The notes beneath the pieces were generated by a model, which saw nothing but the letters and a program-made list of their open reading frames with translations, was not told where the DNA came from and searched no databases. Of a stretch of 64,000 nucleotides of DNA, positions 18,816 through 60,396 are shown piece by piece; the stretch's first letter is position 1, and the number at the start of each line of letters is the position of its first letter. This DNA is from Morinoia aosen. Taxonomy: Eukaryota; Arthropoda; Malacostraca; Amphipoda; Talitridae. The position numbers and the translations under genes are program-made. Where the stretch lies: assembly GCA_030386875.1 (NCBI GenBank), contig CM059579.1, forward strand, positions 89,718,253 to 89,782,252, given 5' to 3'.

Positions 18816-18819
18816 GTAT

Positions 18820-27931: not shown

Positions 27932-28111
27932 CTGCGAGGGGAGGTGCTGGGGAGAGGGTGTCTGGAGTTGCTGCGAAGTGACGGCGGGGAAGATGTTGGG
28001 GAATTCGAGGGGATTTAACTGCTGCCTGCAGTGCTGGGCGCTCCCCTGAGGGCGCTGGGTGTCCTCTACAGGGCGCCGGGGAACATGGAGCCCTGCTGCT
28101 GAGGCGGCGTC
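27932..28111 (-). CDS. Probable LIM-homeodomain gene, exon D: Pro/Gln-rich C-terminal segment
   Basis: A 180-nt, phase 0-0 exon of exactly 60 codons. The acceptor is TTTCATCTTTCAAAG before 28111 and the donor is CAG then GTAAGC at 27931. Exon C also ends in phase 0, so the two are splice-compatible. The peptide is rich in Pro, Gln, Ser and Ala (for example LEFPNIFPAVTSQQLQ and TPSPQHLPSQ), as expected of a transcription-factor activation region, and it has no recognisable fold. It lies about 15.4 kb downstream of exon C on the same strand, with no other equally good exon seen in between. The GC content is clearly above the surrounding intron. A MITE ends about 80 bp beyond the donor. It could instead belong to a different minus-strand gene; the assignment to the LIM-homeodomain gene is inference from strand, phase and composition. 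Confidence 0.58.
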
Positions 28112-28437
28112 CTTTGAAAGATGAAAGTTTTAGAATTATTATTCCGTTTTACAAAAGCAGGAAAATTAAAAGAAAGTAGTTTTATAACTAAAATTCCGTG
28201 ATGTTAAAGCGCAAACATCACAATCATCACGGTTTCTTGTTAAAATGGAGACTTCACAAATTGTCTGCCCAAATCTTCTCAGTTACAAACCACTGAAAAC
28301 GGTCGCGAACGCCATAAACCCGTTTGATGAACTCGTGACTTTTGTTTTCGTGATTCTTGAAGTTATTCTCCTCGTGCTTACTATCACATGCATATATTAC
28401 TGCATTAACTTACAACACGTTGCGGTCTACAGAACAA
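28112..28437. other. Intron next to exon D
   Basis: AT-rich sequence upstream (in gene sense) of exon D, with the pyrimidine tract of the acceptor at its left end. No repeat recognised. Confidence 0.5.
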
Positions 28438-28745
28438 AGATTAGATTAGATTATTATTTAGTTTGAGCCTCCCTATCCGCAAAGGCTAGCCAAAGAGGAA
28501 GGAAGAAGGCACCATTTAGTATGGAGTTAAGGAAATGCAGAATCTATGCAGAAAGGGCACTGAAACAGAAAGTTAAGAAAGAAGATCATGAAACAAGAAA
28601 AAGTTGAAGAAGAAAGTAGTAGGTGCTGAAAAACAGGACAGCAGTGAACCGATAAAAGATGGTCCGTAACAAAACAAAAACCTATTCTATTCCAACAAGA
28701 AGAAAGCCTACCTAACCTTTAGCTCAGGCTCTTACATAGTCTACA
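28438..28745 (-). mobile_element. 361-bp retroposed element, 5'-truncated (family 2)
   Basis: Tail GATTAGATTAGATTATT, then TTAGTTTGAGCCTCCC, CACCATTTAGTATGGAG and CTACCTAACCTTTAGCTCAG. Lacks the final 40-50 bp found in full copies. Confidence 0.85.
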
Positions 28746-28994
28746 GAACAAAGACAACGCTATGTCCAAGAACTTAATTCGCTCATTGTCTGTCACGATT
28801 AGCTCAAATGAGTCGAATGTTGCACTTCTCCTTCGCGTCTACTATCAATAATTAATAAGCAGCATTTATAAATACCCGTATAAATACCACACTTATTACC
28901 TCGTACATCTCAGTGTTGGCTGCGCTACGAGTTGAGCAGCACAAGACACTAAGTGCGTCAGAGCACATATCACAACAGCTACGAAAGAACGGCG

Positions 28995-29221
28995 TTAACA
29001 CTTTGAGCGCGACGTGACCCACCGGTGGTCACTGAGGGGTTTTCATAATGCTGCTGACCGACCAGCAGTCACAAGCTCAATTTTAATGATTACTCAATGG
29101 AAACTAACTAAAAACACGTTCCAGTTAATGTTTAACATTTTCAACATTACTCACTATAATTGACTTAAAATTTGAATTGAATATTGAAACTCAGTTTTAC
29201 CCGCCGCACTCAAGGTATTAA
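28995..29221 (+). mobile_element. TTAA-type MITE, best-preserved copy (family 1)
   Basis: TTAACACTTTGAGCGCGACG at the left and CGCCGCACTCAAGGTATTAA at the right are near-perfect inverted complements, both including TTAA, the target site of piggyBac-type transposons. The interior is AT-rich without coding capacity. 227 bp. Confidence 0.88.
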
Positions 29222-30300
29222 ATGATGAAGATTTTTTGTGTGGATGGTAGGAACGAGAATTTATTGAGCAAGGCCGGCTGGCTCGAGCCTTATCGTGGGC
29301 TGTAGCCCTACAGCGGCGGGAGGCATTTCCGCTTCAACGCAATACAGGTTCCGCGCTCGTCTGGCTACGTTAGGGACACTAGCTAAAGTTAAAAAGATGA
29401 AACAAAGAAAATGGAAAAATGAGAAAAAAATGAAAAATAATGTAAACGCGTTATTTATGAACACTGCCTTAAAATACTGGTAAATGGATTATTGACATAT
29501 AAAAGACGTTTTATCTATTCAGCATGAGCATGATATGAAGAATGCAAGAGTTTTATTTATAAACACTGTCTTCTAATGATGATAAATGTATTATTGGCTT
29601 GCATTAAGACGTTTTAACTATAGAACACGAGCACAATGTGAAGCTAACAGTGAAGCTAAATTGTGTTTACATAGATGTCGTTTTGGATTGTCGCCTGAGA
29701 GTGTAACTTGCAATTTCGCCATTTTTGGAAATTGTACGTCATCCATTTTTTTCTTTACTTGAAAAATTCAACAGTTTCTGCTTCGGTACAGGAGCTGCGT
29801 ACATGAGAAAACACTACGCTCCAAAATTCACCTCGAACGTAATCTTTTAAAATTATAAATTTATTGCAATACAAACACAACCTTGTAGTAAGCTCAAGTC
29901 CATTTTTAAACGTAGTTACAGTACGCACGAGTATTCCCCTCGAAAGTAAACTTTTACCATGAAAACTTCTGCAGTAAAAACAACTTATAAATTTAGGTAC
30001 ATATCTTACGTAATTACAGCGGAGTGAAAATATGAACGGAAGCGGCATGAGCTTTATAGCTTAAGTACTCCTAAAATTCCTAAAAATACTCCTCGCACTC
30101 CTAACAAAAGGAAATATACATACTGTAGCTATACCCTCTAAAGCGTGACGGCAACACTGAGGCATCACTCTGTCCCAGTGAGGGCCGTGTTCGCTGGCAA
30201 CTGTCTCTCGTGCCCGGCAAGGTTGCCAGGAGTTGAGTGGGCCTTTTGGTAACATTAGAGAAGGAAAGGGTTGAGCTAAACAATTTTGGTTCTGGAAATG
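29222..30300. other. No recognised feature
   Basis: AT-rich. Contains a pair of similar segments at about 29440-29480 and 29550-29590 (TTATTTATGAACACTG and TTATTTATAAACACTG followed by TGGTAAAT/TGATAAAT). No gene recognised. Confidence 0.45.
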
Positions 30301-30655
30301 ACCGATCTGTCAAACCTGGATCGATCTGTTAACCCATGATCGATCTGCTAACCCTGGGTCGATCTGTCAACCCTGGTTCGATCTGTCAACCCTGGTTTGA
30401 TCTGTCAACCCTGGGCTGATCTGTCAACCCTGGGCCGATCTTTCAACCCTGGGCTGATCTGTCAACCCTGGGCCGATCTTTCAACCCTGGGCCAATCTGT
30501 CAACCCTGGGTCGATCTGTCAACCCTGGGTCGATCTGTCAACCCTGGGTCGATCTGTCAACCCTGGGTCGATCTGTCAACCCTGGGCCGATCTGTCAACC
30601 CTGGGTCGATCTGTCAACCCTGAGCCGATCTGTCAATCCTGGACCAGTCAATCGA
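30301..30655. repeat. Minisatellite, 19-bp unit
   Basis: About 19 copies of CGATCTGTCAACCCTGGGT, with TGATC/CGATC and GGGCC/GGGTC variants. Confidence 0.95.
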
Positions 30656-31009
30656 TGCTGTAACAATCCCAACTAAGACACTAGTCACTACAGTAGTTCC
30701 ACGCTGAGCTGATAAGTTTAATAACAATTTTCACGGACATTTCACTGTCAAAATAAGGTCGAATAACTATCAAGGAAGACCAATCTCAGACTGAAAAGTT
30801 CAGAAAAAATATCGTATTATTTTTCGGCTCAGCAGCGGCGCTAATATTGCAATTTGTCCATATATGGAGTTATGGTTTTATTTAGGAGTATGACGAGACG
30901 CTGGCGAGTGTTTTATGGCTTTAGTGCCGCCCTGCAGCAGGCCGTCCTGCCCTGCTGGCCTGCTGCTCTGCTGCCCTTTGCTGCATGCCCCCCACAGGCA
31001 GGGCTGGGG

Positions 31010-31225
31010 AGGGCGGTGGGGAAGTGGGGAAGGTGAGGTAGTGAGGGAAGATGGGGGAGCGAAAGTGGGGAAGGGAAGGGAGGGAAGATGTGGAGAGGGA
31101 AGGTGAGGGAAGTGGTAGAAGTGAAGGAAGATGGGGGAGGGAAAGGTGGGAAGTGGGGAAGGAAGGGAGGGAAGTGGGCAAGAGAGGGAAGGAAGTGGGG
31201 AAGAGAAGGGAGAGGTAGGGTAGGC
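31010..31225. repeat. GGGAAG-rich purine tract
   Basis: Over 200 bp almost free of pyrimidines, built from GGGAAGTGGGGAAGG-like motifs. May form triplex or G-rich structures; no coding content. Confidence 0.8.
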
Positions 31226-31377
31226 CTACTGAATCGAGGTGAAAGCTGCTCATCTAGTTCGCGTTGCGGTCGTCACACGCGGCATATGCCTAATGAACTC
31301 GTCACACAGCCTACCGGCCTAGGCAGCGGAACACAAGCAAGTCGAAAAATGTAATGTTTAAACAATGGAAGGATTCG

Positions 31378-31572
31378 TCGAACACTCTCACTGCAGCAGG
31401 TAAAACTGGCGTTTAAAGTTCAGTTCAAATTTAAAGTGAATCGTATCAAGCAATGTTGAAAATACCAAACATTAACCGGAACATATTTTGGTTTGTGACC
31501 ACTAGTCGGTGAGCAGCACAATGAAATCTCCCTCAGTGACCAAATATGGCTCACGTCGCAGTCAAGGTGTCA
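31378..31572 (+). mobile_element. TTAA-type MITE (family 1), worn
   Basis: ACACTCTCACTGCAGCAGGT at the left and CACGTCGCAGTCAAGGTGTC at the right. The core AAGTTCAGTTCAAATTTAAA and the GGTGAGCAGCACAATG block match the family. Confidence 0.72.
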
Positions 31573-31964
31573 GAAATTCAACTTCGTGAGAGTGCAAGCA
31601 TCAAAATGTCAATGGAAGAACGTGACTATATTTCTTTTTTCATTCTGGTTTACGTGAAACTATAAAGGTGAGTTTCTGAGTGTATAGGTGAGCAGGTAAG
31701 GTAAGGGCGTCTGTAGGTAAGCGTCTGAACGATGTCACCAATATGAGTGATTAACTGGTCATATTCACAGTGCGTAATGTCGACATTAGCATCCCCGTGA
31801 TCATGAGGGATGATGCATCACTAAATTGAAGAACTGAGAACTATAGGAAAACTTTGGAATATTGAAAAACTGTGAGGACTAAGTATAGAGTTCTCGTTCA
31901 TTTGCAAAGATGCTGCAGCGGTGTGGGAGGCCTACCAATGCAACAATTTTCTAAATACGACATA

Positions 31965-32595
31965 ACAGCACATTCAACAGCTGTATTCAATAACAGCACA
32001 TTCAACAGCTGTATTCAATAACAGCACATTCAACAGCTGTGTTCAATAACATCACATTCAACAGCTGCATTCAATAACATCACATTCAACAGCTGTATTC
32101 AATAACATCACATTCAACAGCTGTATTCAATAACAGCACATTCAACAGCTGTATTCAATGACATCACATTCAACAGCTGTATTCAATAACAGCACATTCA
32201 ACAGCTGTATTCAATAACAGCACATTCAACAGCTGTGTTCAATAACATCACATTCAACAGCTGCATTCAATAACATCACATTCAACAGCTGAATTCAATA
32301 ACAGCACATTCAACAGCTGTATTCAATGACATCACATTCAACAGCTGTATTCAATAACAGCACATTCAACAGCTGTATTCAATAACAGCACATTCAACAG
32401 CTGTATTCAATAACAGCACATTCAACAGCTGTATTCAATAACAGCACATTCAACAGCTGTATTCAATAACAGCACATTCAACAGCTGTATTCAATAACAG
32501 CACATTCAACAGCTGTATTCAATAACAGCACATTCAACAGCTGTATTCAATAACAGCACATTCAACAGCTGTATTCAAGAACAGCACATTCAACA
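31965..32595. repeat. Minisatellite, 28-bp unit with an E-box in each copy
   Basis: About 22 copies. Each unit is made of AACAGCACATTC followed by AACAGCTGTATTCAAT. Variants swap CAGCAC for CATCAC, and TGTATTC for TGCATTC or TGTGTTC. A larger pattern of several units (31985-32170) recurs at 32170-32350. Confidence 0.95.
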
Positions 32596-34117
32596 GTCCG
32601 TGTGTCTGTGACGCTCACAAGGATGCTCAATGACCGTATCTGTGGTACGAGTTTCACCACAGCACAAGTACAAGAATATTTTAATGGCGGGTACTGTTGG
32701 TGGGCATCCACGGCTGGAAATTCGTTTGAACGGATCAATCCGGTTGAACTGGTATAAGAGGAGAGCGTTGGTGCGGAGAGCGAAGAAGGTAGCGGTCCGT
32801 TATCAGCCTGGACCACCGTTTTGATGCAACGGTTGCCACTCCAATGTTGACGCACATTATCGGCCAATTAGCGTTCGGCGTCAAGTAAGAAAGGCGGCGA
32901 GTGTTTGGGCAACGCACATGAAAGACACCGAGGTGTCGTTAGCGGTTATAAGCTATCAAAACTTTGCCGATAACAACACCTCGACAGATAACCATCGACA
33001 GCGAACACTTGCGCTATCTTCCGATAGCCTTCAGTGTGGAGCGATAGCCGCGCTGCTGCCCTCACGTATTTCTCATACCAACTCATCTTGGCAACCGTGC
33101 CAAAAACTGTTTCGGAACAACCTTAGTGATCACTGAATTTGGCAGGGTGGAGTGCCATAATCCAGCGACTACAGTTCAAAAACCAAAGTGATGATAATTT
33201 TATTCTGCATCATAGATGTGACGAATGGAACCCTACTTCTGACGTGTAACGTTTGTTAGCCATACTTGAAAGAGTTCTATTCATGATATAAAAATATTGA
33301 AATAAGAAGAAAAATAGGGGCAGGATAAATTTCATCGAAATTTTAAAGTGTTCATGCTAATAATGTGCAGACAGAAAGTAGCCCGAATATGGACGCGTAA
33401 TTATCATGATTATTTCCATGACAAAATCAGTTGAGACTGAAATGAAATATAGAAGGTGAAACGTTAGTGTTTCATTCGACCATTACACCTAGAATTTAAT
33501 ACATTCGAGTATTTTACAGAATAGCATTACAAATTTCCCCGTGAACAATTTTATTGGAGAATCATTGCCTCGAATTTACAACCTCTTTAAGACTATATTT
33601 TTTCCGTTTCATATAATAATCTTAAAAATGAATGAATGTTAATATGTTTTTGACTTTTGTATTTTGCCTCTGATATATACAGTTGCAAGTTATTTTTAAT
33701 AGATAAATTATTTTTAATAAATGCTAAATGATTTGGAACTAAAGTTGTGCGCGTTGAGCATCAAAGCCCGTCGTCTGCACCGACAGTTCGCTGGAGCAAA
33801 CTTTAAGCGGAAGGCAAATGACTTCACAGCGCAGTCCTCTTCTGTCCAGTATCTCCCTACTTTATGTAGAATTTCCCACTGCTCAAATAGACAGTGATGC
33901 TGAAGTTCTGTGAGTATTTGTAAGGAGTCTAGCTTTTTAGAACGAAATTTCTTCGTGAAGTTTATGGAACAAATTGTAATCATGCCCAATTTAGTTATGA
34001 AGGCGACAGTAGGTCAAAATTCGACAATAGACAAAAGGATATCGAATCAAGTGACAGTCCTAACAGTGAGGACAAATAATTAAAGTAGAAACAATAACAG
34101 CGGCGGGTGGCAGCAGC
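32596..34117. other. No recognised gene
   Basis: At 32920-33000 a partly inverted pair, CACCGAGGTGTCGTTAGCG and AACACCTCGACAGATAACC, could form a stem. The rest is AT-rich with short ORFs. Confidence 0.4.
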
Positions 34118-34147
34118 ACAAAAAAAAAAAACAAAAAAAAAAAAATA
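34118..34147. repeat. A-rich homopolymer run
   Basis: A12-C-A13 after CAGCAGCAC. Could be a retroposed A-tail, but I see no element or duplication attached to it. Confidence 0.7.
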
Positions 34148-34759
34148 CAAAAATTAAAAAGCATAAAAAAAGACATCAGCGAAGTATCAAAGTTTAGATA
34201 ATGCAGGATTTTAACATCAATGCTGCGTCTCGACAGCGGGTGCACATTTCAGAAGGATGAACAACATGAAGAAACATAAAAAAGACATAATATCAAGCCC
34301 ACGCACGCTGAAAATAAACAGATTGATCCCGATAGCACGACAAAGAAACGAAAGACGAGGTCAGGCGTCAATATTTTGCATTGCTGTGCCTTGTATGTGG
34401 AGTATATGCCCTAATGGGCATGTTGTATGTGGTGCACATAACATCACATGGATTGGAGCCCTAACAGGCGCGGCTTTCTTGGTGTACAGCAGCTGCGAAC
34501 CTACGTCTTTGGGAATGTTAGCGTTGGACGGACGGAGGAGAGTAGACACACACGACTCCTTGTGAGTGGAACTACTAAAACTGAGTGTCCATTGAGGGGA
34601 GACTACGTGGTTCTCACTGTGCCTCGGGTCAGTCTCTCCCAGAGAGCCTCTGCCTCATTTCACGTCATAATACAAGAAACAAAGGCAATGCAAAGACAGC
34701 GAACGCGCAGTAACGAAAATAACGCATCAAACTCTATGGCTCTTCACTAATATCAAGAA
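34148..34759. other. No recognised feature
   Basis: Overlapping ORFs 34257-34565 and 34448-34750 on plus have no recognisable domain. Confidence 0.4.
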
Positions 34760-35465
34760 CAAATTTAAAACGTAGTAGTAACACCAAAATTAGCATTAAG
34801 ATCAACGTAAGCATTAAGATCAACACTAGCACCAATATCCACACTAGCATTAGCACTAACATCAACACTAGCACCAACACCAACACCAACATCATCATCA
34901 ACACCAACATCAACACCAACAGTAGCACCATCACCAACACCAACGAGGGCGGAGTGCACCCACCAGTCCCGACAGCAACACAAGCAACACTATCAGAGGC
35001 ACCTGTGAAATCTTGTGGAAAATCCCTCAATAACAGCTGAAACTCAGCAACATCAGCGACTTAACAATAACAGCCGTGACGTCAACAAGAGCTACTTGAG
35101 CATGACCTAGAAAAACATCAGCAATAACAGCAATAACAGTATTACCATGTGAACAAATTGAGGAAAATATCAGCACCAACATCAGCAGCTCTTACAGTAG
35201 CTGCAATAATATCAAATTGGAAAATCACCAGGATCAAACCACGTGCAGTAAACAGCTGCTGCGACCACACCAGCACACATTGTCAATAACAACAGCACCA
35301 ACAACAGCAATAGTGTAAATAGAAGCAGCAACAAGCAATAACAGCAGGGTCAACAACAGCAGGGTCAACAACAGCAGGGTCAACAACAACAGCAGCAGCA
35401 GTGTCAATAACAAGAGCAACATCAACAACATCAACATCAATAACAACAGCAGTGTCAGTGGCAGC
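34760..35465. repeat. CAN trinucleotide-rich region
   Basis: Imperfect CAACAC/AGCACC/ATCAAC hexamers at 34785-34985 and CAACAACAGCAGGGT, CAGCAGCAG and CAATAACAG runs at 35280-35465. Followed at 35505-35570 by C-rich sequence (runs of up to ten C). Confidence 0.85.
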
Positions 35466-35644: not shown

Positions 35645-37345
35645 CGTGTTGGAGCGTGTGTTGCTGCGTGTGTGTTGCTGCGTGTGTGTTGCTGCGTGTG
35701 TGTTGCTGCGTGTGTGTTGCTGCGCGTGTGTTGCTGCGCGTGTGTTGCTGCGTGTGTGTTGCCGCGTGTGTGTTGCCGCGTGTGTGTGTTGCCGCGTGTG
35801 TGTGTTGCCGCGTGTGTGTGTTGCCGCGTGTGTGTGTTGCCGCGTGTGTGTGTTGCCGCGTGTGTGTGTTGCCGCGTGTGTGTGTTGCCGCGTGTGTGTG
35901 TTGCCGCGTGTGTGTGTTGCCGCGTGTGTGTGTTGCCGCGTGTGTGTGTTGCTGCGTGTGTGTTTTGCTGCGTGTGTGTGTTGCTGCGTGTGTGTGTTGC
36001 TGCGTGAGTGTGTTGCTGCGTGAGTGTGTTGCTGCGTGTGTGTGTTGCTGCGTGTGTGTGTTGCTGCGTGTGTGTGTTGCTGCGTGTGTGTGTTGCTGCG
36101 TGTGTGTGTTGCTGCGTGTGTGTGTTGCTGCGTGTGTGTGTTGCTGCGTGTGTGTGTTGCTGCGTGTGTGTGTTGCTGCGTGTGTGTGTTGCTGCGTGTG
36201 TGTGTTGCTGCGTGTGTGTGTTGCTGCGTGTGTGTGTTGCTGCGTGTGTGTGTTGCTGCGTGTGTGGGTTGCTGCGTGTGTGGGTTGCTGCGTGTGTGTG
36301 TGTTGCTGCGTGTGTGTGTGTTGCTGCGTGTGTGTGTTGCTGCGTGTGTGTGTTGCTGCGTGTGTGTGTTGCTGCGTGTGTGTGTTGCTGCGTGTGTGTG
36401 TTGCTGCGCGTGTGTGTTGCTGCGCGTGTGTGTTGCTGCGCGTGTGTGTTGCTGCGCGTGTGTGTTGCTGCGCGTGTGTGTTGCTGCGTGTGTGTTGCTG
36501 CGTGTGTGTTGCTGCGTGAGTGTTGCTGCGTGTGTGTTGCTGCGTGAGTGTTGCTGCGTGTGTGTTGCTGCGTGTGTGTTGCTGCGTGTGTGTTGCTGCG
36601 TGTGTGTTGCTGCGTGTGTGTTGCTGCGTGTGTGTTGCTGCGTGTGTGTTGCTGCGTGTGTGTTGCTGCGTGTGTTGCTGCGTGTGTGTTGCTGCGTGTG
36701 TGTTGCTGCGTGTGTGTTGCTGCGTGTGTGTTGCTGCGTGTGTGTTGCTGCGTGTGTGTTGCTGCGTGTGTGTTGCTGCGTGTGTGTTGCTGCGTGTGTG
36801 TTGCTGCGTGTGTGTTGCTGCGTGTGTGCTGCTGCGTGTGTGTTGCTGCGTGTGTGTTGCTGCGTGTGTGTTGCTGCGTGTGTGTTGCTGCGTGTGTGTT
36901 GCTGCGTGTGTGTTGCTGCGTGTGTGTGCTGCTGCGTGTGTGTGCTGCTGCGCGTGTGTGTTGCTGCGTGTGTGTGTTGCTGCGTGTGTGTTGCTGCGTG
37001 TGTGTTGCTGCGTGTGTGTTGCTGCGTGTGTGTTGCTGCGTGAGTGTTGCTGCGTGTGTGTTGCTGCGTGTGTGTTGCTGCGTGTGTGTTGCTGCGTGTG
37101 TGTTGCTGCGTGTGTGTTGCTGCGTGTGTGTTGCTGCGTGTGTGTTGCTGCGTGTGTGTTGCTGCGTGTGTGTTGCTGCGTGTGTTGCTGCGTGTGTGTT
37201 GCTGCGTGTGTGTTGCTGCGTGTGTTGCTGCGTGTGTGTTGCTGCGTGTGTGTTGCTGCGTGTGTGTTGCTGCGTGTGTGTTGCTGCGTGTTTTGCTGCG
37301 TGTGTTGCTGCGTGTGTTGCTGCGTGTGTGTTGCTGCGTGTTGCA
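35645..37345. repeat. Minisatellite, 14-bp and 16-bp units
   Basis: About 1.7 kb of TGTGTGTTGCTGCG (14 bp; 35645-35780 and most of 36480-37345) and TGTGTGTGTTGCTGCG (16 bp; 35780-36480), with sub-variants TTGCCGCG (35760-35945) and TGCGCGTG (36405-36480), and rarer 12-bp units. ORFs of up to 581 codons on both strands are artefacts. Confidence 0.96.
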
Positions 37346-37880: not shown

Positions 37881-37914
37881 TGAGAACGCATGGATCGAGC
37901 AGAGCTATTTGCTC

Positions 37915-38475: not shown

Positions 38476-39893
38476 GCCGTCGGGTGCAAGCCGTCGGGTG
38501 CAAGCCGTCGGGTGCAAGCCGTCGGGTGCAAGCCGTCGGGTGCAAGCCGTCGGGTGCAAGCCGTCGGGTGCAAGCCGTCGGGTGCAAGCCGTCGGGTGCA
38601 AGCCGTCGGGTGCAAGCCGTCGGGTGCAAGCCGTCGGGTGCAAGCCGTCGGGTGCAAGCCGTCGGGTGCAAGCCGTCGAGTGCAAGCCGTCGGGTGCAAG
38701 CCGTCGGGTGCAAGCCGTCGGGTGCAAGCCGTCGGGTGCAAGCCATCGGGTGCAAGCCGTCGGGTGCAAGCCGTCGGGTGCAAGCCGTCGGGTGCAAGCC
38801 GTCGGGTGCAAGCCGTCGGGTGCAAGCCGTCGGGTGCAAGCCGTCGGGTGCAAGCCGTCGGGTGCAAGCCGTCGGGTGCAAGCCGTCAGGTGCAAACCGT
38901 CGGGTGCAAACCGTCGGGTGCAAACCGTCGGGTGCAAGCCGTTGGGGGCAAGCCGTTAGGGGCAAACCGTCGGGTTGAGCCGTCGGGTGGAAGCCGTTGG
39001 GGGCAAACCGTCGGGTGCAAGCCGTTGGGAGCAAACCGTCGGGTGCAAACCGTCGGGTGCAAACCGTCGGGTGCAAACCGTCGGGTGCAAACCGTCGGGT
39101 GCAAACCGTCGGGTGCAAACCGTCGGGTGCAAACCGTCGGGTGCAAACCGTCGGGTGCAAACCGTCGGGTGCAAACCGTCGGGTGCAAACCGTCGGGTGC
39201 AAACCGTCGGGTGCAAACCGTCGGGTGCAAACCGTCGGGTGCAAACCGTCGGGTGCAAACCGTCGGGTGCAAACCGTCGGGTGCAAACCGTCGGGTGCAA
39301 ACCGTCGGGTGCAAACCGTCGGGTGCAAACCGTCGGGTGCAAACCGTCGGGTGCAAACCGTCGGGTGCAAACCGTCGGGTGCAAACCGTCGGGTGCAAAC
39401 CGTCGGGTGCAAACCGTCGGGTGCAAACCGTCGGGTGCAAACCGTCGGGTGCAAACCGTCGGGTGCAAACCGTCGGGTGCAAACCGTCGGGTGCAAACCG
39501 TCGGGTGCAAACCGTCGGGTGCAAACCGTCGGGTGCAAACCGCCGGGTGCAAACCGTCGGGTGCAAACCGTCGGGTGCAAACCGTCAGGTGCAAACCGCC
39601 GGGTGCAAACCGCCGGGTGCAAACCGCCGGGTGCAAACCGCCGGGTGCAAACCGCCGGGTGCAAACCGCCGGGTGCAAACCGTCGGGTGCAAACCGCCGG
39701 GTGCAAACCGCCGGGTGCAAACCGTCGGGTGCAAACCGCCGGGTGCAAACCGCCGGGTGCAAACCGCCGGGTGCAAACCGCCGGGTGCAAACCGCCGGGT
39801 GCAAACCGCCGGGTGCAAACCGTCGGGTGCAAACCACCGGGTGCAAACCGCCGGGTGCAAACCGCCGGGTGCAAACCGCCGGGTGCAAACCTA
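38476..39893. repeat. Minisatellite, 14-bp unit in three blocks
   Basis: About 100 copies. Block 1 AAGCCGTCGGGTGC (38476-38885), block 2 AAACCGTCGGGTGC (38885-39585, with a disordered patch at 38930-39035 containing GTTGGGGGC units), block 3 AAACCGCCGGGTGC (39540-39893, mixed). No stops, hence false ORFs up to 505 codons. Confidence 0.97.
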
Positions 39894-44524: not shown

Positions 44525-44747
44525 AGTAGTATCTGTAGTTGGTCTTTTGTTATGGCTGCCCTTCTCCTCGGAGTCTTCCTGGCTTGGGCACCACCGCGCC
44601 CCTGGAGCTCCTCTTCGTCAGCGTCGCCGTCAGGCTGCAGCCCGGGAGACGCTCCGACGTCCTGCGATGACGAAGACGAGCTTGAGGGTCGCGACGATGC
44701 GACGGCGTCTGAGACGATGGAGTACGTCGCGCCTTGGAAACGAAAGA
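44525..44747 (-). CDS. LIM-homeodomain gene, exon B: linker and N-terminal arm/helix 1 of the homeodomain
   Basis: A 223-nt exon. The acceptor is CCTCACGCAG before 44747 and the donor is CT then GTAAGA at 44524. The 73 whole codons hold a short hydrophobic start, a run of seven Ser, an acidic patch (DGDADEEEL), then the basic arm and helix 1 (TPRRRAAITKDQLQIL). By back-counting from the conserved Trp48 in exon C, the arm gives R3, R4, R5 and I8, and the last full codon is L16. Codon 17 (Leu) is split CT/G by the intron. If spliced directly to exon A, about 60 residues separate the LIM domain from the homeodomain, a normal length for LIM-homeodomain proteins. The acceptor is the less certain end; a second AG (TTTCCAAG) lies 13 bases further in. 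Opposite-strand ORFs here are shadows. Confidence 0.8.
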
Positions 44748-45865: not shown

Positions 45866-45924
45866 TCCCGTGTAAGATTGACAGTCCTTACTAATTTTTG
45901 CCTATTGCCTATCTCATGCCCTTA

Positions 45925-49864: not shown

Positions 49865-50225
49865 AGATTAGATTATAGGTTAGTTTAAGCCTCCCTAACC
49901 GCTGCAAAAATAGAGCGTATCGAAGAGAGGAAGGAGGAAGGCACCATTTAGTATGGAGATAAGAAAATGAGGAACCTATGCAGAAAAGGCATAGAAACAG
50001 TAAGATGGGAAAGAAGTTCATGAAATAAGATAAAATTTGAAGAAGAAAGTCAGAGGTGCTGAAAAACAGGACAGTAGTGAACCGAAAAAAGGTGGTCCTT
50101 AACATAACAAAAAACATTTTATTTCAACAAAAAGAAGACCTACCTAACTCTCAGCTCGGGCCCTCACATTTTTCCCCTGGGAGTGCTAATTCCCATAGAT
50201 ACAATAGTTGTATCCCCCTGAGGGG
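49865..50225 (-). mobile_element. 361-bp retroposed element, full length with 14-bp target duplication (family 2)
   Basis: Flanked by ACATTTGGACCGTT at 49851-49864 and again at 50226-50239, a perfect 14-bp direct repeat. It begins AGATTAGATTATAGG and ends with ATACAATAGTTGTATCC and CCCTGAGGGG. A variable-length target duplication plus a short simple-repeat tail points to target-primed retroposition (SINE, or a short internally deleted LINE), with the sense strand being minus. No Pol III box that I can recognise with confidence. Confidence 0.93.
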
Positions 50226-50504
50226 ACATTTGGACCGTTTTGCATCTTCTTATTGAAGGAATATTATCGTACGGAATAAGTATTATCGTGGTTATATTTT
50301 GTACATTTCTTATAGAGGCTCGAAACTCATTCGAGCAGTAAAGTCGAATTTACAATTCTGTTTCTTACAACCCAACCCAGTCAAGTTTCCTACTCGCGCA
50401 ATCGTGATCAACGTGATCATGACGGGCCACAGCCCGGTATCGATTGAGCGAAAGAAATTGCGCATGGGCAGGAAGTGATGTGGCAGGCCTAATGAGCTGA
50501 TGTG

Positions 50505-51918
50505 ATATGTCATGTGATGTGCCATGTGATGTGCCATGTGATGTGCCATGTGATGTGCCATGTGATGTGCCATGTGATGTGCCATGTGATGTGCCATGTG
50601 ATGTGCCATGTGATGTGCCATGTGATGTGCCATGTGATGTGCCATGTGATGTGCCATGTGATGTGCCATGTGATGTGCCATGTGATGTGCCATGTGATGT
50701 GCCATGTGATGTGCCATGTGATGTGCAATGTGATGTGCAATGTGATGTGCCATGTGATGTGCAATGTGATGTGCAATGTGATGTGTCATGTGATGTGCAA
50801 TGTGATGTGCAATGTGATTTGCAATGTGATTTGCAATGTGATGTACAATGTGATGTACAATGTGATGCGCAATGTGATGCGCAATGTGATGCGCAATGTG
50901 ATGCGCAATGTGATGCGCAATGTGATGCGCAATGTGATGCGCAATGTGATGCGCAATGTGATGCGCAATGTGATGCGCAATGTGATGCGCAATGTGATGC
51001 GCAATGTGATGCGCAATGTGATGCGCAATGTGATGCGCAATGTGATGCGCAATGTGATGCGCAATGTGATGCGCAATGTGATGCGCAATGTGATGCGCAA
51101 TGTGGTGCGCAATGTGATGCGCAATGAGATGCGCAATGAGATGTGTAATGTGATGTGCAATGTGATGTGCAATGTGATGTGCAATGCGATGTGCAATGCG
51201 ATGTGCAATGCGATGTGCAATGCGATGTGCAATGCGATGTGCAATGCGATGTGCAATGCGATGTGCAATGCGATGTGCAATGCGATGTGTCATGTGATGT
51301 GTCATGTGATGTGTCATGTGATGTGTCATGTGATGTGTCATGTGATGTGTCATGTGATGTGTCATGTGATGTGTCATGTGATGTGTCATGTGATGTGTCA
51401 TGTGATGTGTCATGTAATGTGTCATGTGATGAGTCATGTGATGTGTCATGTGATGTGTCATGTGATGTGTCATGTGATGTGCCATGTGATGTGCCATGTG
51501 ATGTGCCATGTGATGTGCCATGTGATGTGCCATGTGATGTGCCATGTGATGTGTCATGTGATGTGTCATGTGATGTGTCATGTGATGTGTCATGTGATGT
51601 GTCATGTGATGTGTCATGTGATGTGTCATGTGATGTGTCATGTGATGTGTCATGTGATGTGTCATGTGATGTGTCATGTGATGTGTCATGTGATGTGTCA
51701 TGTGATGTGTCATGTGATGTGTCATGTGATATGTCATGTGATGTGTCATGTGATGCGTCATGTGATGTGTCATGTGATGTGTCATGTGATGTGTCATGTG
51801 ATGTGTCATGTGATGTGTCATGTGATATGTCATGTGATGTGTCATGTGATGCGTCATGTGATGTGTCATGTGATGTGTCATGTGATGCGTCATGTGATGT
51901 GACATGTGATGTGCAATT
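50505..51918. repeat. Minisatellite, 12-bp unit, about 118 copies
   Basis: Unit CATGTGATGTGC and relatives. Ordered domains are GCCATGTGATGT (to 50725), mixed GCAATGTGATGT, GCGCAATGTGAT (50870-51110), GTGCAATGCGAT (51180-51290), GTGTCATGTGAT, a GCCATG island (51480-51545), GTGTCATG again. ORFs of 206-605 codons in several frames are artefacts of a stop-free multiple-of-three unit. Confidence 0.97.
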
Positions 51919-52754
51919 CCATAAAATATTATAAGACTGAAAGGTGACCTGAAAGAAATGGATGAAGAGAAAGAGCGAGCTGGAGGTAGACTGTGCGGCC
52001 TGATGCTTGTGAAAATAGCGGAGGTGGAAAATGAAAACAAGCTCGCAATAGTTTCCTACACCTATCGCTGCTGGCTCAGTCTCCTGCAGATTATCGGGAT
52101 ATCCTTCGTAGGAGAGGAACTCATGAACCCTACGAATCCTAAGATGCAACATTTCCAAGCAGAAAGAGTTCCTCTGGTACAACGTCGTGCAGCGTTGGCA
52201 GTGCCATCAAATGAAGCTCAAATTTTCTGCACTGCACAGTTGAGCACAAAGATGAAGTGTCGGCAAATGTCTCGGTGTTCTACCTTCAAATATCAGCGAG
52301 AGACAGTTCTGAGACTGTCTATAGAGACGTTATCTCATTTTTGCTGACCATTACTATTTTTATGGACGTAGCAACCCAGTCTGACTTTTTCGCGGCCTGC
52401 GTGCATATTTTTGGCCACCTAAGCTATTTAATAGCTCAAATCGCTTTGACATTGGTAACAGAACAAACATTATAGAAATTCAGAACACGTAAATGGATTT
52501 AATTTTTTGGACTCGACCTTCACGTGGCGAGTTTTTATAGTAAAATTTCCCACCCTAGAAGATATTGTTTTAAACACGAACAATGAGACAGACTGATGTC
52601 ATAGGGACCCACGACATCCTCCATCAACCTGGAAGCAGAGCGTCAGTTCCCTGAACACATCAGGCACAACACCGTGGGAGCCCTAGCGAGCACGGCGAGC
52701 AGCGCAGCGGTGAAACAGGTCTCACAGAACCCGATTCCTTAAAAAAGATAAAAT
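51919..52754. other. Intronic, no recognised exon
   Basis: Plus ORF 51958-52347 (129 codons) starts in charged sequence and has no recognised domain. A minus-strand 54-base open block at 52660-52715 has splice-like edges, but its phase does not fit between exons A and B. Confidence 0.35.
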
Positions 52755-53125
52755 CAGATGTTAGTTTAAGCCTCCTAATCTAAACCGAAACAAAGGCGTT
52801 CCAAAGAGAGGAAAGAGAAAGGCACCATTTAGTGTAGAGTTCAAAGAACGCGAAATTTGTGCATAAGGTGCATAGAAACAGAAAGTTGAGAAAGAAGTTC
52901 ATGAAACAAGATTAAATTTGAAGGAGAAAGTAGCAACTGATGAAAAAAGGAGCAGCAGTGAACTGAAAAAAGATGGTCCATAAGGAAACGACAGAAAAAT
53001 TATTATATTTCAACAAAAGGAAGGCAACCTAACTCAGGGCTCGGGACCTCACATTTCTCCCCCCCCCCCCCCATAGAAATACCAATTCCCATAGATGCAA
53101 TATTTGTATCCTTCTGAGGGGAATA
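52755..53125 (-). mobile_element. 361-bp retroposed element, full length (family 2)
   Basis: TTAGTTTAAGCCTCCTAATC, CACCATTTAGTGTAGAGTTC, GAGCAGCAGTGAACTG, and a far end with a C14 run at about 53060 in place of the usual CCCCCTGGG, then CATAGATGCAATATTTGTA and TTCTGAGGGG. Confidence 0.85.
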
Positions 53126-53864
53126 ATCTTGAGAACAAAAGAAAAAACAGGAGATCCTTCCTTGCAATTTTGGACCACCCAGGAAGCCGCGATCCGCAAT
53201 TGGGTGACATTTTCTGTCTGTGGCGACTGCGCGGTAGCAAAAGACGTCGGCGCTGAAGCAAAAACATGTTACTGACGATATATTTGTGCGAAAATCTCAT
53301 AGGAATTAAGTAACTCGTGAACGAGAACTTCTTTTCTTGGACCTATTCCTAAGCGTTTGGTTTCATGAGCATGTAAAACAAGCGAATTCATTGCGATAAT
53401 TAAATGCAAGCGACAATTTATTGTCTTCGAATGCGTTGGAGGACTATTGGAAGAGAAAGTAGATACATTTGATGTCGAAATGCATCTCCCCCAAAGATCG
53501 CACACAACTTTATGTAGGCGGGAGAAATTCAGCATCTTAATAATAATCATATGTTATTGGGAGGTATCCCGCTCTATTGCTAGTGTTGTTTAAATCTGAT
53601 ATTTTGTTTGAGTTTCAAGAACTCTGAGCAGCGAGGGAGGCTAAGAGGGGCTGGAAGTACTCAAACGCAGCCTCCAAATTGACTCAATCTCATCAGAAGC
53701 AAAGAAGCGCGGGCGTCTGATGCCTTCACTTGATAAAGCCGCTGCAAGACTCGCGCAATCGAGTTGGGGCCACGCAGCGGAGACCAAACCTAATAACGCC
53801 TCCCTGTCTCAACAGCAGCAGTCTCCGAGACTCAAATCTTGCCTTAAAATCTCGCTCTAATGGA
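53126..53864. other. Intronic, no recognised feature
   Basis: Small minus-strand ORFs (53049-53300, 53269-53550) are not recognisable. Confidence 0.45.
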
Positions 53865-54062
53865 CTGTTTCATGAATTCTGAGGCAAAACAGCGTAGGGT
53901 TGAGAAACAGAATATTATAGCATTCATCCCGAATAGGTTCACCCTAAACACAGTTACAAATCTTCCTTAAAAATCTTTCTTAACGGATGGCTTTATGAAC
54001 TCCGAGGCAAAGCAGCATAGGGTTGGTTAGCCAAAAATTATGGCATTCATTTCGAATGGTTG
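53865..54062. repeat. Two-copy direct repeat, about 115-bp unit
   Basis: GGACTGTTTCATGAATTCTG, GAGGCAAAACAGCGTAGGGT and GCATTCATCCCGAATAGG are matched by GGATGGCTTTATGAACTCCG, GAGGCAAAGCAGCATAGGGT and GCATTCATTTCGAATGG. Confidence 0.85.
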
Positions 54063-55259
54063 TGTTATGCATTCATTCCTGTGCGAGTTCTTATATTTTT
54101 TTTGAGTTCTAATATATGTTTTATATACATTTGAGTGTTTGATTTCTTAAATATATTTGGGTACGATATTTTCTTAGTAGTTCTGTCGTAGCAGGAGAGG
54201 TGCAGTGATGCGTCCGGCATCGCTTCTTTCCCCAACTTTTTGCCTCAACAATTGGTGATATGGCGCCCTTCAGTACAGATTTAAAACATATTTTTAAGGA
54301 AGAAAAACTACTACAACTAACGAATCGTAATGGCAACGGAATATTTTACGTGTAGTAGATAGGTCAGTTGATTATCGTTATGCTTTCACTGTGATTTCAC
54401 TTGGATTTCCTGTAATTTCAGCCGGAGCACGAGGCACTGCGGCCTGCATATTTCAGCGGCAGGAGAATAAAGAGCACGTCCGCGTTTGCTGAGGGTGGGT
54501 TTCAATTTTCCAGAGCTGAGCTTCATGTAATAATCAGAAGGATCAGTAGGCAGAAAATTATCTGTTTGAACCGCTCTGTATCTGTTGACTCGAGGGCGAT
54601 TTCTTCGACCAAAATCGGCAGTGTTTGTCTTCCATCAGCGCGACCGTGATTGAATCAGCCCCGATCTTTGCATGGCTCCCGCCTGTAGTGCGTCGGATCA
54701 TATCAACGAGCGGAATAAAAATAGTCGAAGTACTGCACCAAATGTTGATGAGCGTAGAATGACTGGAGCAGGTCTGAGACTGCGCGGCTGGGTGTGGTAT
54801 GAAGAGTAATATTTACCGAGAAATTATTTCAGTATAGGAAATGATTTTAGCTAAGCACAAGTAAAAACTGGGTGCGATCTGAAGAGCAATGGTTCACGGA
54901 GATCCAATTTTAGTGCATAAATTCTTTTACTCGATCAAAAGCATTAACTGAGAAAGTGTTGAGTTGTGTGTGCCAGCTCCTCTCCATGAGCGGGTACTCA
55001 GTAAAATGAGCTGAGGTCCATCACACCGCATGAGCTAACCTATTGTGAGATATCGGTAACGATGTTACATGTGTGAAGCTAGCTGCTGGAAGAAATTATT
55101 CGAGAAGTTCATTTCATCAAACGTTGCGACTCACAATGCATGTTCACAGTACACATCACGCGACACGGTATGAGGGAAGCTGAAGCGAAAGTAAGTGGCT
55201 TCCTCCCATCTAAAGGCTATTTTGAAACAACGCATTTCCATCGATTCCTCAAAGAATTT
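54063..55259. other. Intronic; one plus-strand exon-like segment
   Basis: 54422-54494 has a strong plus-strand acceptor (TTTCCTGTAATTTCAG), 24 open codons (PEHEALRPAYFSGRRIK...) and GAGG/GTGGGT. It runs against the LIM-homeodomain gene. Low support. Confidence 0.25.
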
Positions 55260-55690
55260 TAGGTGAATACAGTCCGTGTATCGTTCAAAACAGCTCCCAG
55301 AAGTGCATCAGGTAAATAATTATAAATAATTAAAAATCAGGGGCCTTGCATCGCATTTCTTTCGAATTCTCAAATGTTTTTGGGTGAAAGTTACATTCAG
55401 TGTATCTTCCAAAACAGCTCTCAGAAAGCGCGCCAAGCAAATACCTAAATAAATATCAGTTGCCTCACGAGATTCGCGTTCACGAATGAATGGTAGACAG
55501 CAACAGTGGAGTAAAACATGCTTTAGTGAATCTTTCAAAACAGCTCTCACACAGAAAGTGTACCAGGTAAATAACTAAAATAATTAAAAATCAGCTGCCT
55601 CGCCAAAACCATGAAGTGAATAACTAAATGAATATCAATTGCCTCTCCAGATTTGCATACACGAATGATAGGTATAAAGCAACATTGGAT
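55260..55690. repeat. Degenerate direct repeat, three partial copies
   Basis: GTGTATCGTTCAAAACAGCT, GTGTATCTTCCAAAACAGCT and AGTGAATCTTTCAAAACAGC each precede CAGGTAAATAA- or CCAAGCAAATAC-type sequence and AATTAAAAATCAG. The CACGAATGAATGGTAGACAG block recurs as CACGAATGATAGGTATAAAG. Confidence 0.78.
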
Positions 55691-55867
55691 CAAAACTACA
55701 CCCCTGGTCCTGAGCCAGCGCTGGGTCAATACTTGATAATTAACTGAGGTGAGCATCTGCGAATCTTCTTGTTTTTGTGGTCGTGTTGCTGTCGGTCGGG
55801 CGTGGCGGGTTGTGGGCAGTCGGGCAGCCGGCCGCACGACCTAAAAACTGCCATGATTCGGCGCTTT

Positions 55868-56145
55868 TGTAATGTGGGGGTGATTTCTAGATGCGGGGTG
55901 ATTCCCAGATGAGGGGGTGATTCCCAGATGAGGGGGTGATTCCCAGATGAGGGGGTGATTCCCAGATGTGGGGGTGATTCCCAGATGAGGGGGTAATTCC
56001 CAGATGAGGGGGCGATTCCTAGATGAGGGGGTGATTCCCAGATGAGGGGGTGATTCCCAGATGAGGGGGTAATTCCCAGATGAGGGGGTGATTCCCAGAT
56101 GAGGGGGTGATTCCTAGATGAGGGGGTGGTTCCCAGATGAGGAGA
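55868..56145. repeat. Minisatellite, 19-bp unit
   Basis: About 14 copies of TGATTCCCAGATGAGGGGG with few variants (TAATT, CGATTCCTAG). Confidence 0.95.
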
Positions 56146-56371
56146 ATGATTCCAAAATTCAAAAAAATTTAGAATCGCTAAGCGATTCAAGAACGACAGG
56201 AAGATGCCTCGGCATACGTCTGAATGTTGTAGCAAATCCAAGATAAAAATAATATGCAGAAATATTACATAATTTCTATCTTATTAACTGTACATGACGC
56301 TGAGATATCTATATTCTATGGCTTCCGTCCTCAATTCTAACAAAGATACATTAGGAAAGAAGGGCACAAGG

Positions 56372-57160
56372 AGGAACTGTCACTGCAGGAGGGAGCAGTC
56401 ACTGCAGGAGGGAACAGTCACTGCAGGAGGGAAAAGTCACTGCAGGAGGGAAAAGTCACCTCAGGAGGGAACAGTCACTGCAGGAGGGAGCAGTCATTGC
56501 AGGAGGGAGCAGTCACTGCAGGAGGGAGCAGTCACTGCAAGAGGGAGCAGTCACTGCAGGAGGGAGAAGTCATTGCAGGAGGGAACAGTCACTGCGGGAG
56601 GGAGCAGTCACTGCAAGAGGGAACAGTCACTGCAGGAGGAAGTAGTCACTGCAAGAGGGAGCAGTCACTGCAGGAGGGAACAGTCACTGCAGGAGGGAAC
56701 AGTCACTGCAGGAGGGAACAGTCACTGCAGGAGGGAACAGTCACTGCAGGAGGGAACAGTGACTACAGGAGGGAGCAGTCACTGCAGGAGCGAACAGTCA
56801 CTGCAGGAGGGAACAGTCACTGCAGGAGGGAACAGTCACTGCAGGAGGGAGCAGTCACTGCAGGAGGGAGCAGTCACTGCAGGAGGGAGCAGTCACTGCG
56901 GGAGGGAGCAGTAACTGCAGGAGGGAGCAGTCACTGCAGGAGGGAGCAGTCACTGCAGGAGGGAGCAGTCACTGCAGGAGGGAGCAGTCACTGCAGGAGG
57001 GAGCAGTCACTGCAGGAGGGAACAGTCACTGCAGGAGGGAGCAGTCACTGCAGGAGGGAGCAGTCACTGCAGGAGGGAACAGTCACTGCAGGAGGGAGCA
57101 GTCACTGCAGGAGGGAGCAGTCACTGCAGGAGGGAACAGTCACTGCAGGAGGGAGCAGCA
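56372..57160. repeat. Minisatellite, 19-bp unit
   Basis: About 41 copies of CAGTCACTGCAGGAGGGAG/A, mostly differing at a GAGCAG/GAACAG position. Confidence 0.96.
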
Positions 57161-58380
57161 GGAGCTGGTATCTCCCCCGATGCACGAGATAAGAACCGAT
57201 AAGGAGGGGCTAAGGACTGATAAGGAGGGGATCAGAGAGAGGTCTGTAAGCCATCAGGGCAGGGGACGCGAGGGGACGCGAGGGAAAGGCAAGAAGGATT
57301 AGGCGCGTCCCAAAAATTGCATCGAAAGTTTACTCGTATTTCGTTGTGATGATGGCACAGAAAATAATTGATTGGTTGTGGTCTTTTTGTCACACATTTT
57401 GTTTGACCCCTCGGGGAAACGTAACATGCTCTCACACAAGTGCGTGCCACTCTTAAACTTGTGTTGAGAATCTCACGACACTTTAAATGTTCTCATGAGA
57501 CCTGCGTTTGTGAATGTTCCCGCAGCAGAATGTTCTGTCGAGACACTTGCTACTTTCTGGGATTGTAAATAAATTGCTGCCGACTAATACAAGTTACTGC
57601 AGCTGCTATACGGGAATTATTTCATGCCTCATTCCGTCTAGTTCTTTATTGAAATTTAGAGATTTAAATAAAATACTCAGCCTTTGTACTCGTCAAAGAT
57701 CATACCAGTAAATGGTGGGGCCTGCTGTATGAAATGCATCACGGCGAACTTATTGATGTTAAAATTATTTTACATATTGTGTCAACATTTTATCTGAAGA
57801 GAAGGCCAAAAATATATCCAGCCTCGAAAACATATCAAGTTATTCAGTTTTTCAGTAGACTGACATCGCCTGTTCCTTCCATGCAAACTAGAAAGCGAAT
57901 TTTTTATTTCTTTTGCTCAAAATTTGAAGAAGTTTAGAGAAATGCAGGGTCGCGGTGCTGGCCATGTAGAGAATGTGCAGTAATGTTTAGGGAATGTGCA
58001 AAAGCCCTGCAGAAAATGTGCAGTAAACATGCAGAGAATGTACAGAGAATGTACGCGCGCGTCTCAGCAGCAGCACCGGCCTACATGATCAATGTCCTCA
58101 ATAATTCAGGCGAAAAGTGACTAAGTCAGGATCGGTGCATGCATCATGGGATCCGTTCCTTTGACAGAGTTAGCTTGCATTAATCATTGGTCTTGAGTAG
58201 CCGCCGCTGCCATTACTGAAGAAGTCCCTCAGGGCTCCATATGGCGCCCTACGCTGGCTGAGGGGCCACGAGCGAGGGTGTGGCACTTTCTGCCAGCAAA
58301 AAATTACCGTCGCCCTTTCTAAGTTTAGAAAAGATGTCTGTTTTGTTGCGTCTTGCAAGACTTGATGGGAACCACTGCCT
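57161..58380. other. Intronic, no recognised exon
   Basis: Short irregular GAGAATGTGCAG/GAGAATGTAC repeats at 57965-58050. Minus-strand 58170-58370 is GC-richer and open but not recognised. Confidence 0.4.
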
Positions 58381-58647
58381 CGGTAGAGGAAACAAGGTAG
58401 GGTCATTTCTATGGGGAAAATACACTTCTTCTTGTTCGGCTAGCCAATAGAACGGCTTTATTTCGAACGAACTTTATGACGTCACCAAAACACCATGTCG
58501 TTAGGCCAATAGTGAAGCCAGATTTGGGGGTAGCAGTGCTACCAGATGCAATATGAGCGCTGCTATTGGTTCGTTGCGGTGACGTCAGCAAATACACACA
58601 GTCGACGAAAAAAAGACTGGTTTGACCTTACCTTGTTTCCTCTACCG
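58381..58647 (+). mobile_element. 267-bp MITE (family 3), copy 3
   Basis: CGGTAGAGGAAACAAGGTAG at the left and TACCTTGTTTCCTCTACCG at the right are exact complements over about 19 bp, the best ends of the three copies. The interior has AATAGAACGGCTTTAT, TATGACGTCACC and GGTGACGTCAGC. Confidence 0.88.
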
Positions 58648-60094
58648 TGGCCGCTGCTCACATTTGGTGGCCCTGATTCATAAAATGAAGCCTCATCTGA
58701 AGACAAAAGGAGCTCATAAACGTCACCGGCATCGCTGAACATTATAATATAAATTCGAATCACTGCACTCAATTTTCATGCGTAACAAGTCGAAACATGA
58801 GAAAAAATCGAAGTAAAATTTACCCCCGTTCGAACGTTCCCAAATAGTTTTCGGCATTTCGTTTTCAACCCCCCACGATTTTTCCGCGCGAAGTCTATGG
58901 GGTTCCGAAAGGAAGAAATTTTAGGTCGAATAATTTTGTGGGGCGTCTGGACTTCATTTCCTCTCCTGGTGGCTGGAAGGAGAGGCGCCCCCTCGCCGGC
59001 TGTCACTCAAAAGTCACACGGCCGCCTCTAATTGCCCTCTTATTGCAAGAAATTGCGCTCCCTCTCTCGAGAAAGCCAGCGCCGCAGCCGGATATTCAAT
59101 TGATTGCCTTGCTAATGAGCAGCCGTGATATCTTCCTCGCAATGCTGCCAAAAAACTCCTCAGGCACCGGATATTACGTCCCACAGTCGTGTGGCTCCGT
59201 CCCTGCAGCGGATGGAATCAGCGACTTCGGCCAGGGATGAACTACTCCTGTTGCACTCAGAATTCTGCTCTAAGGGAGCTTGGTATTTCAAAGCGTATTT
59301 TGTAGCGAAACAAATGAAATTCTCAATGAGTCTTGAGATACGCTGAGACAAAGAGCAGTAGAATGAGGCGGTTGCAGTTACTCATCCGACCATTTCAGTG
59401 AAGAAGAGGAGAGAAAAATGGATGGTGGCAACATGGATGAGTCCAGAGTGTGAGACCATATTTGCCTTATAGGGCTTTCCAACCAGCAAGACTGGGCGGA
59501 TTGCACGCAAGCAAAAAGTTCGTCAAGGCTAGCGACCACCGATTATATATGCGATCTTTGCAGGTGAGCATCAACTTGACTCAACTTAGGCTGATGATGC
59601 TCGAACATTATCGAGTTTCAAAAATGAAACTTCATCTGAGAGAAATTTTGTGTTAGGACGAATTTCGGGGCTTGAAGAAGAAGAAGAAGCACGGCAATCT
59701 CCGTTACGATGATAGTAACAACCCACCTTGAGAAGAAGTAGTCAACAGAAACTACATTCCAAAGGAGAAGGAAACAGTCAATGAATACTCAGGAAATGAA
59801 TCACGTAACTATATTCAATATCTGTCGGGTCTCGCATCTCTTGGGTAAATAGGTCTGAATTTTTACACGTCCGAGAGCAACAGACGGAAGGAACCGATGA
59901 ACACTAGGGGTTAAAGCGCACATGTCGAAGCGTCCCACATTTTCCCGGACACGTTGAGCGATTGTTAACCAATCGTAAAGACATGATCTCCTTTTTGCGC
60001 GGCTCAAGTTCGAATGAAAATACAAGTCACCCGAATGCAGCTTGAGTGCGGCGGTCAGTGGGGCCAAAGATTCACTCGTCATTCCACTCGACAA
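58648..60094. other. Intronic; conserved-looking island and one weak plus-strand exon-like segment
   Basis: 59020-59150 contains ATTCAATTGATTGCC and TGCTAATGAGCAG, homeodomain-type motifs in balanced sequence. 59473-59563 on plus has CTTATAG before and CAG/GTGAGC after, and is open in all frames; one ends YICDLC. Confidence 0.25.
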
Positions 60095-60240
60095 AAGCGG
60101 AATAACTTCAAGTTCGCCGACCGCCGCTCAATTGCCCGAAACATTTTTGTAATTTTCATTTCACTCGACAAATAAGTGACTAATTTTAATGTCGTTTATT
60201 TCACTCGACAAATAGGTGAAACAATTTTAACGTTGCTGAA
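60095..60240. repeat. Short direct repeat (TTTCACTCGACAAATA)
   Basis: CACTCGACAAAAGCGGAATA, TTTCACTCGACAAATAAGTG and TTTCACTCGACAAATAGGTG, spaced about 35-80 bp, just downstream (gene sense) of the exon A donor. Confidence 0.7.
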
Positions 60241-60268
60241 CTAACAGAAATAATTGGTGTAGTCTCAC

Positions 60269-60396
60269 CTTGTGTGTTGGAGAAGCCAGCAGACGGGATT
60301 TGCTCATTGGGCACGAGGTGGTCGCCGCACACTAGGTCGCTGTCGCACCTGCTCACGGCTGAGTTGGGCATCTGCAGCTTGGGGCAAATGGAACAC
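60269..60396 (-). CDS. LIM-homeodomain gene, exon A: second zinc-binding half of a LIM domain
   Basis: A 128-nt internal exon encoding 42 residues, with a strong pyrimidine-rich acceptor (CACCCGCAG before 60396) and a consensus donor (CAAG then GTGAGA at 60268). The peptide starts CSIC and continues to CDSDLVCGDH, giving C-x2-C-x18-C-x2-H. This is the spacing of the second zinc site of a LIM domain (family rule C-x2-C-x16-21-C-x2-C/H/D). The start of the exon right at the first Cys pair means the first zinc site must lie in an upstream exon, beyond the right edge of the window. From memory, the VCGDHL stretch resembles the second LIM of Islet-type proteins (C-x-x-DH). LIM domains bind partners such as LDB/Chip in the nucleus. 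The donor phase (one base, G) matches exon B, which begins with two bases (TC). The alternative is an unrelated Cys-rich exon. Confidence 0.62.

Follow-up and report, generated by a model that had tools for sequence, protein, structure and literature searches.

A 64,000-nucleotide stretch of the genome of the amphipod Morinoia aosen (contig CM059579.1, here C24, positions 89718253-89782252; the window below) contains minus-strand exons that probably belong to one predicted LIM-homeodomain gene, which would be a tandem duplicate of Islet that has since changed strongly. The case for descent from Islet rests mainly on exon structure and on position beside a conventional Islet gene on the same contig. 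The genome analysed comprises 1.99 Gb in 29 contigs, and the Scr-, Dfd- and labial-type homeodomains that it contains suit an arthropod.

Exons of the window gene and intron positions shared with Islet

The exons of the window gene are as follows, in window positions unless a contig is named:

LIM1 exon, outside the window, C24:89797584-89797375 (equivalent to window 79332-79123), minus strand: 210 nucleotides if the nearest acceptor is correct
Exon A, 60396-60269, minus strand: LIM2 second zinc module (C-x2-C-x18-C-x2-H); phase 2 in, 1 out
Exon B, 44747-44525, minus strand: acidic and Ser-rich linker and homeodomain residues 1-17, with codon 17 split in phase 2; phase 1 in
Exon C, 43632-43470, minus strand: homeodomain residues 17-60 and a Gln-rich tail; 163 nucleotides, phase 2 in, 0 out
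Exon D (doubtful), 28111-27932, minus strand: Pro/Gln-rich frame; phase 0 to 0

A preliminary description of this DNA had joined exons A to D on the minus strand, with good splice sites and with phases agreeing at each junction (1/1, 2/2 and 0/0). We reproduced these bounds and phases letter for letter; the joined product has 231 amino acids and is open throughout, and exon B has a second in-phase acceptor at 44732. The split 60-residue homeodomain of that description is clearly recognised once joined (65.1 bits, E 5.2e-18; Pfam cut-off 22.9 bits). Its statement that the gene is recoverable only by joining four exons is too strong, because exon C alone already identifies the homeodomain (48.6 bits, E 7.3e-13).

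The same description had suggested looking for the first LIM zinc sites further to the right on the minus strand, and a LIM1 exon is indeed found there. The LIM domain match (C24:89797374-89797565, minus strand, 33.3 bits, above the Pfam cut-off) lies 18.7 kb upstream of exon A. It is also the best of 1112 minus-strand open frames (E 9.4e-7) for a hidden Markov model (HMM) made from reference LIM1 sequences with the M. aosen Islet excluded. In the LIM1 exon both zinc sites have their ligands, and its phase 2 end fits the phase 2 start of exon A. With this exon the gene spans 35.9 kb from LIM1 to exon C, or 51.4 kb to exon D, if D belongs to it. A minisatellite array lies directly upstream of the LIM1 exon.

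Upstream of the window gene stands a conventional Islet gene with LIM1, LIM2a, LIM2b, first-half and second-half homeodomain exons (C24:89976083-89962909, minus strand), whose homeodomain is identical to that of human ISL1 at 56 of 60 positions. On the same strand and contig, 159 kb separate its C-terminal exon (89956725-89956880; ISL1 C-terminus residues 2-50, 57% identity, E 6.5e-10) from the LIM1 of the window gene, which lies downstream. The conserved Islet is a gene of its own, in line with the earlier judgement that the window gene has diverged too far to count as the conserved tailup.

Five junctions allow a comparison between the window gene and Islet, and each of them has the same phase in both:

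LIM1 end: phase 2 in both genes; the codon also agrees
LIM2 second-finger start: phase 2 in both genes; the codon also agrees
Linker junction: phase 1 in both genes
Homeodomain codon 17: phase 2 in both genes; the codon also agrees
Junction after the homeodomain: phase 0 in both genes

In addition, exon C has the length (163 nucleotides) of one of the two Islet second-half homeodomain exons, exon b. Eight other LIM-homeodomain exons were read in the genome, as a sample of its LIM-homeodomain genes; we take them to be two Lhx1/5, two Apterous-type, one Arrowhead, two Lim3 and one Lmx. Seven of the eight span codon 17 uncut, and the eighth (Lmx) was read only in the later part of its homeodomain.

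The shared strand and compatible phases, together with the fact that Islet already has two second-half homeodomain exons, would also be expected if Islet were a single, very long transcription unit and the window exons additional alternative exons of it. We consider this very improbable, as the two sets of exons are separated by the Islet C-terminal exon and the window gene has a LIM1 of its own.

Homeodomain and LIM sequences

The homeodomain of the window gene keeps W48, F49, Q50, N51 and R53, followed by the Islet-type C54-K55-D56. Position 47, usually Val or Ile, is Thr. When scored with BLOSUM62 against 42 references, the top eight are all LIM-class homeodomains (from LHX3 at 139 to MEC-3 at 113), followed by DUX4-2 at 110. 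This disfavours a non-LIM origin, although PITX2, DUX4-2 and eve still stand above Islet by plain identity. The best single-homeodomain chain in the PDB is LHX4 (49.3 bits), ahead of 8ejo (44.3), DUX4 (43.1) and ISL-1 (42.1); DUX4 chains with two homeodomains reach totals of up to 75.2 bits, with about 40 at most per domain.

Trees were built on 60 columns from reference homeodomains in three sets, of 42 rows, of 35 rows and with the M. aosen Islet forms included. The window homeodomain joins Islet (64/77) within a group of LIM, POU and ZF homeodomains (93/93) in the 42-row tree, and falls with the LIM class on one side of a branch (80/94) in the 35-row tree. With the M. aosen Islet forms included it is nearest to the Lhx3/4 rows, and the approximately unbiased (AU) test rejects neither a grouping with Islet (p 0.44) nor one with Lhx3/4 (p 0.41).

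The LIM zinc half-site of the preliminary description is present in exon A as a pattern, but no profile recognises it. It has no Pfam LIM match and no PDB match at E<=10, and is absent from the four best matches of a small LIM2 second-finger HMM; the Pfam LIM model finds no match in the three minus-strand frames of window 52100-64000. In 200 simulated sequences matched in dinucleotide composition, the pattern occurs on average 0.18 times per sequence; two of the 200 have it with both an AG and a consensus donor within reach, in any phase. The pattern had been picked after exon A was seen. As an LIM2 second finger, exon A aligns best with Islet (24), then with LHX2 (21), all scores being low. 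Exon A is supported by its intron, which falls exactly at the place of that of the neighbouring Islet's LIM2b, in the codon that precedes the first Cys and in phase 2.

Several results weigh against descent from Islet or against membership of the LIM class. By identity the window homeodomain is closest to LHX3 and LHX4 (27/60 each) and fly Lim3 (26/60), followed by LHX1, PITX2, DUX4-2 and eve (23/60 each), fly Islet (22/60) and human Islet (21/60), again among the 42 references; the M. aosen Islet, at 21/60, thus ranks below LHX3, LHX4, PITX2, DUX4-2 and eve. The homeodomain phylogeny proposed in the preliminary description gives a divided answer: the 35-row tree groups the window homeodomain with the LIM class, but in the 42-row set a single clade of LIM homeodomains and the window homeodomain is rejected (p 0.020; p 0.17 for LIM without it). 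With 35 rows, none of the groupings with PRD (p 0.18), SIX (p 0.12) and ANTP (p 0.09) is rejected. LIM1 has its best alignment score with LHX2 (97), followed by human ISL1 and LMX1B (85 each), LHX3 (77) and the M. aosen Islet (72).

Parts of an Islet protein are also missing from view. Between LIM1 and exon A, a LIM2 first finger is recognised neither by a regular expression, all 49 matches of which lie inside one short repeat (89794836-89795214), nor by an HMM. The first-finger HMM does find the first finger of the M. aosen Islet (E 4.6e-17), but its sister second-finger HMM misses exon A, so that this is a weak test. In Islet the first-finger exon has 99 nucleotides and runs from phase 2 to phase 2, such that its loss or skipping would preserve the frame. 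The ISL1 C-terminus query matches two places in the whole genome, one in the neighbouring Islet and one in the second copy of the locus. No Islet C-terminal motif was found for the window gene in this genome-wide search, and for this reason we call the gene Islet-derived rather than an Islet.

Taken on its sequence, the window gene belongs at best to the LIM class, and the homeodomain alone does not decide between Islet and Lim3. If the gene were instead a paralogue of Lim3 (Lhx3/4) that has diverged, or a different homeobox gene from within or outside the LIM class, and had ended up near Islet, this would account for the top homeodomain identity to LHX3 and LHX4, for LHX4 as the best single-homeodomain chain and for the AU result with Lhx3/4. 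Such an origin is unlikely, as the homeodomain exons of the M. aosen Lim3 are uncut at codon 17 and end after N51, whereas phase 2 at codon 17 is common to the window gene and Islet, which are adjacent on the same strand. The intron positions common to the two genes favour Islet over Lim3. The earlier reading of one gene, Islet- or Lim3-related, is supported.

Second copy of the locus and state of the gene

The locus occurs twice on C24, at 88.64-88.87 and 89.74-89.98 Mb, 1.10-1.12 Mb apart. The copies are 99.56-99.96% identical over long alignments, and 97% or less across tandem arrays, which is too similar for the second copy to be an independent paralogue. Seven other same-strand homeodomain pairs with equal scores are found on single contigs, suggesting that haplotypes have been retained. 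The second copy is probably such a retained haplotype, with tandem genes or a very recent duplication as a possible alternative.

No difference between the two copies falls within exons LIM1, A, B or C. In exon D 3 of 180 bases differ, and all three differences change an amino acid, within an alignment that has 25 mismatches in 3223 bases. Exon D also has no Pfam match. The Pro/Gln-rich exon of the preliminary description is present as a frame with fitting phases, but its coding status is unsupported, and it may be under loose constraint or not code at all.

The unrecognised LIM2 first finger, the strong divergence and the unsupported exon D would also suit a decaying Islet pseudogene. This is improbable: the reading frames, splice sites, zinc ligands and core residues of the homeodomain have all survived although identity to Islet has fallen to about one third, a state that neutral decay is unlikely to leave, and the four exons from LIM1 to C are the same in both locus copies. 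We favour an Islet-derived gene, and the survival of these features through so much divergence speaks for long use.

The window is rich in minisatellite arrays with units of 12-50 bp (34 rows at a score of at least 100), for example at 17543-18817, 35656-37341, 38477-39891, 50500-51914 and 60735-63249. Copies of a dispersed repeat, about 200-340 bases long, occur at approximately 14471-14671, 28494-28741, 49923-50225 and 61643-61981, with 84-89% identity to C24:88657688-88658023. Eight other open frames, on the plus strand, have no Pfam match over the cut-off; one of these, an exon-like frame of 94 amino acids at 25356-25640, has no PDB match either. Searches of the window with Rfam at gathering thresholds and with NCBIfam gave no match. 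One viral-contig match (L001) was dropped, as it covers only 29 residues within a frame of 2785 amino acids.

Doubled homeodomain exons, predicted role and known systems

The second half of the homeodomain is present twice in Islet, and a homeodomain exon is present twice in Lim3:

Islet first-half homeodomain exon, C24:89970398-89970305, minus strand: single
Islet second-half homeodomain exon b, C24:89967109-89966947, minus strand: 163 nucleotides, phase 2 in, 0 out
Islet second-half homeodomain exon a, C24:89963068-89962909, minus strand: 160 nucleotides, phase 2 in, 0 out
Lim3 homeodomain exon 1, C3:57274058-57273890, minus strand: 169 nucleotides, phase 1 in, 2 out; more than one acceptor is possible
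Lim3 homeodomain exon 2, C3:57270977-57270809, minus strand: 169 nucleotides, phase 1 in, 2 out

Islet exons a and b are both 1 mod 3 in length and run from phase 2 to phase 0, so that their joint use would shift the frame. Their recognition helices differ (WFQNKRCKD in b, WYQNKRFKD in a). Between them dN, the nonsynonymous divergence, is 0.28 and dS, the synonymous divergence, about 2.2 and near saturation (simple count, 48 codons), which suggests that both are constrained. No second first-half homeodomain exon was found by tblastn in 18 kb of sequence at the Islet locus. An extra first-half match to a loose regular expression (89964332) was set aside, as it has no consensus donor, and at least one such match occurs in 15 of 200 simulated sequences. 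The two Lim3 exons likewise have matching phases, and a transcript with both would lose the frame. Lim3 has two LIM matches upstream (C3 57282532 and 57284097) and a downstream exon (C3:57266771-57266917) that is the only match in the genome to a reference Lim3 stretch.

In both genes the doubled exons take the form of mutually exclusive exons, with splicing that is predicted. No report of mutually exclusive exons for the homeodomain of Islet or Lim3 was found in the largely open-access literature searched.

LIM-homeodomain genes are conserved neuron-identity genes, and Lim3 is the partner of Islet. The predicted product of the window gene would be a nuclear DNA-binding regulator. Its homeodomain would bind DNA with Q50, N51 and C54 kept, at a target site that is probably altered by Thr47, and LIM1 would probably still recruit an LDB/Chip-type cofactor. 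With neither a recognisable LIM2 first finger nor the Islet C-terminal motif, the protein would join LIM complexes differently from Islet, taking a specialised part in the LIM code or competing within it. It is an evenly balanced question, in our judgement, whether this code has been enlarged by duplicated DNA-reading parts, such that Islet and Lim3 each yield two proteins with different DNA preference and the window gene supplies a third Islet-type factor with a strongly altered homeodomain and a reduced LIM region. If the Islet and Lim3 exons are spliced as mutually exclusive exons, the LIM code would in part be a splicing code. A tandem Islet copy with a homeodomain at about one third identity and an intact exon structure would show the extent to which such a factor can drift, perhaps while still in use.

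There are six LIM-homeodomain subfamilies, with one gene each in fly and worm and two each in mammals, according to the available part of one study (PMC2828406). The same part describes cnidarian LIM-homeodomain genes with one LIM domain (Nematostella Lmx and Hydra Arrowhead), notes that profiles can miss fast-evolving LIM domains, as is perhaps the case for the LIM2 of the window gene, and gives incomplete LIM content as unreported in bilaterians as of 2010. As far as that text goes, the cnidarian genes resemble the window gene in being homeodomain genes of apparently incomplete LIM content; they differ in that the window gene seems to lack half of LIM2 and to be an Islet-type tandem copy.

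Compared with Lhx3/4 (Lim3), the window gene shares the highest homeodomain identity, Tyr at homeodomain position 20 and a PKP turn. It differs in that the M. aosen Lim3 has its homeodomain intron elsewhere and lies on another contig, C3. Compared with Islet/tailup (Isl1, Isl2), the window gene differs in its low homeodomain identity to the M. aosen Islet, in Thr47 and in the LIM2 first finger and C-terminal motif that were not found for it, and has in common LIM1, the LIM2 second finger, the homeodomain, the five junction phases, the codon 17 intron and C54-K55-D56 after R53.

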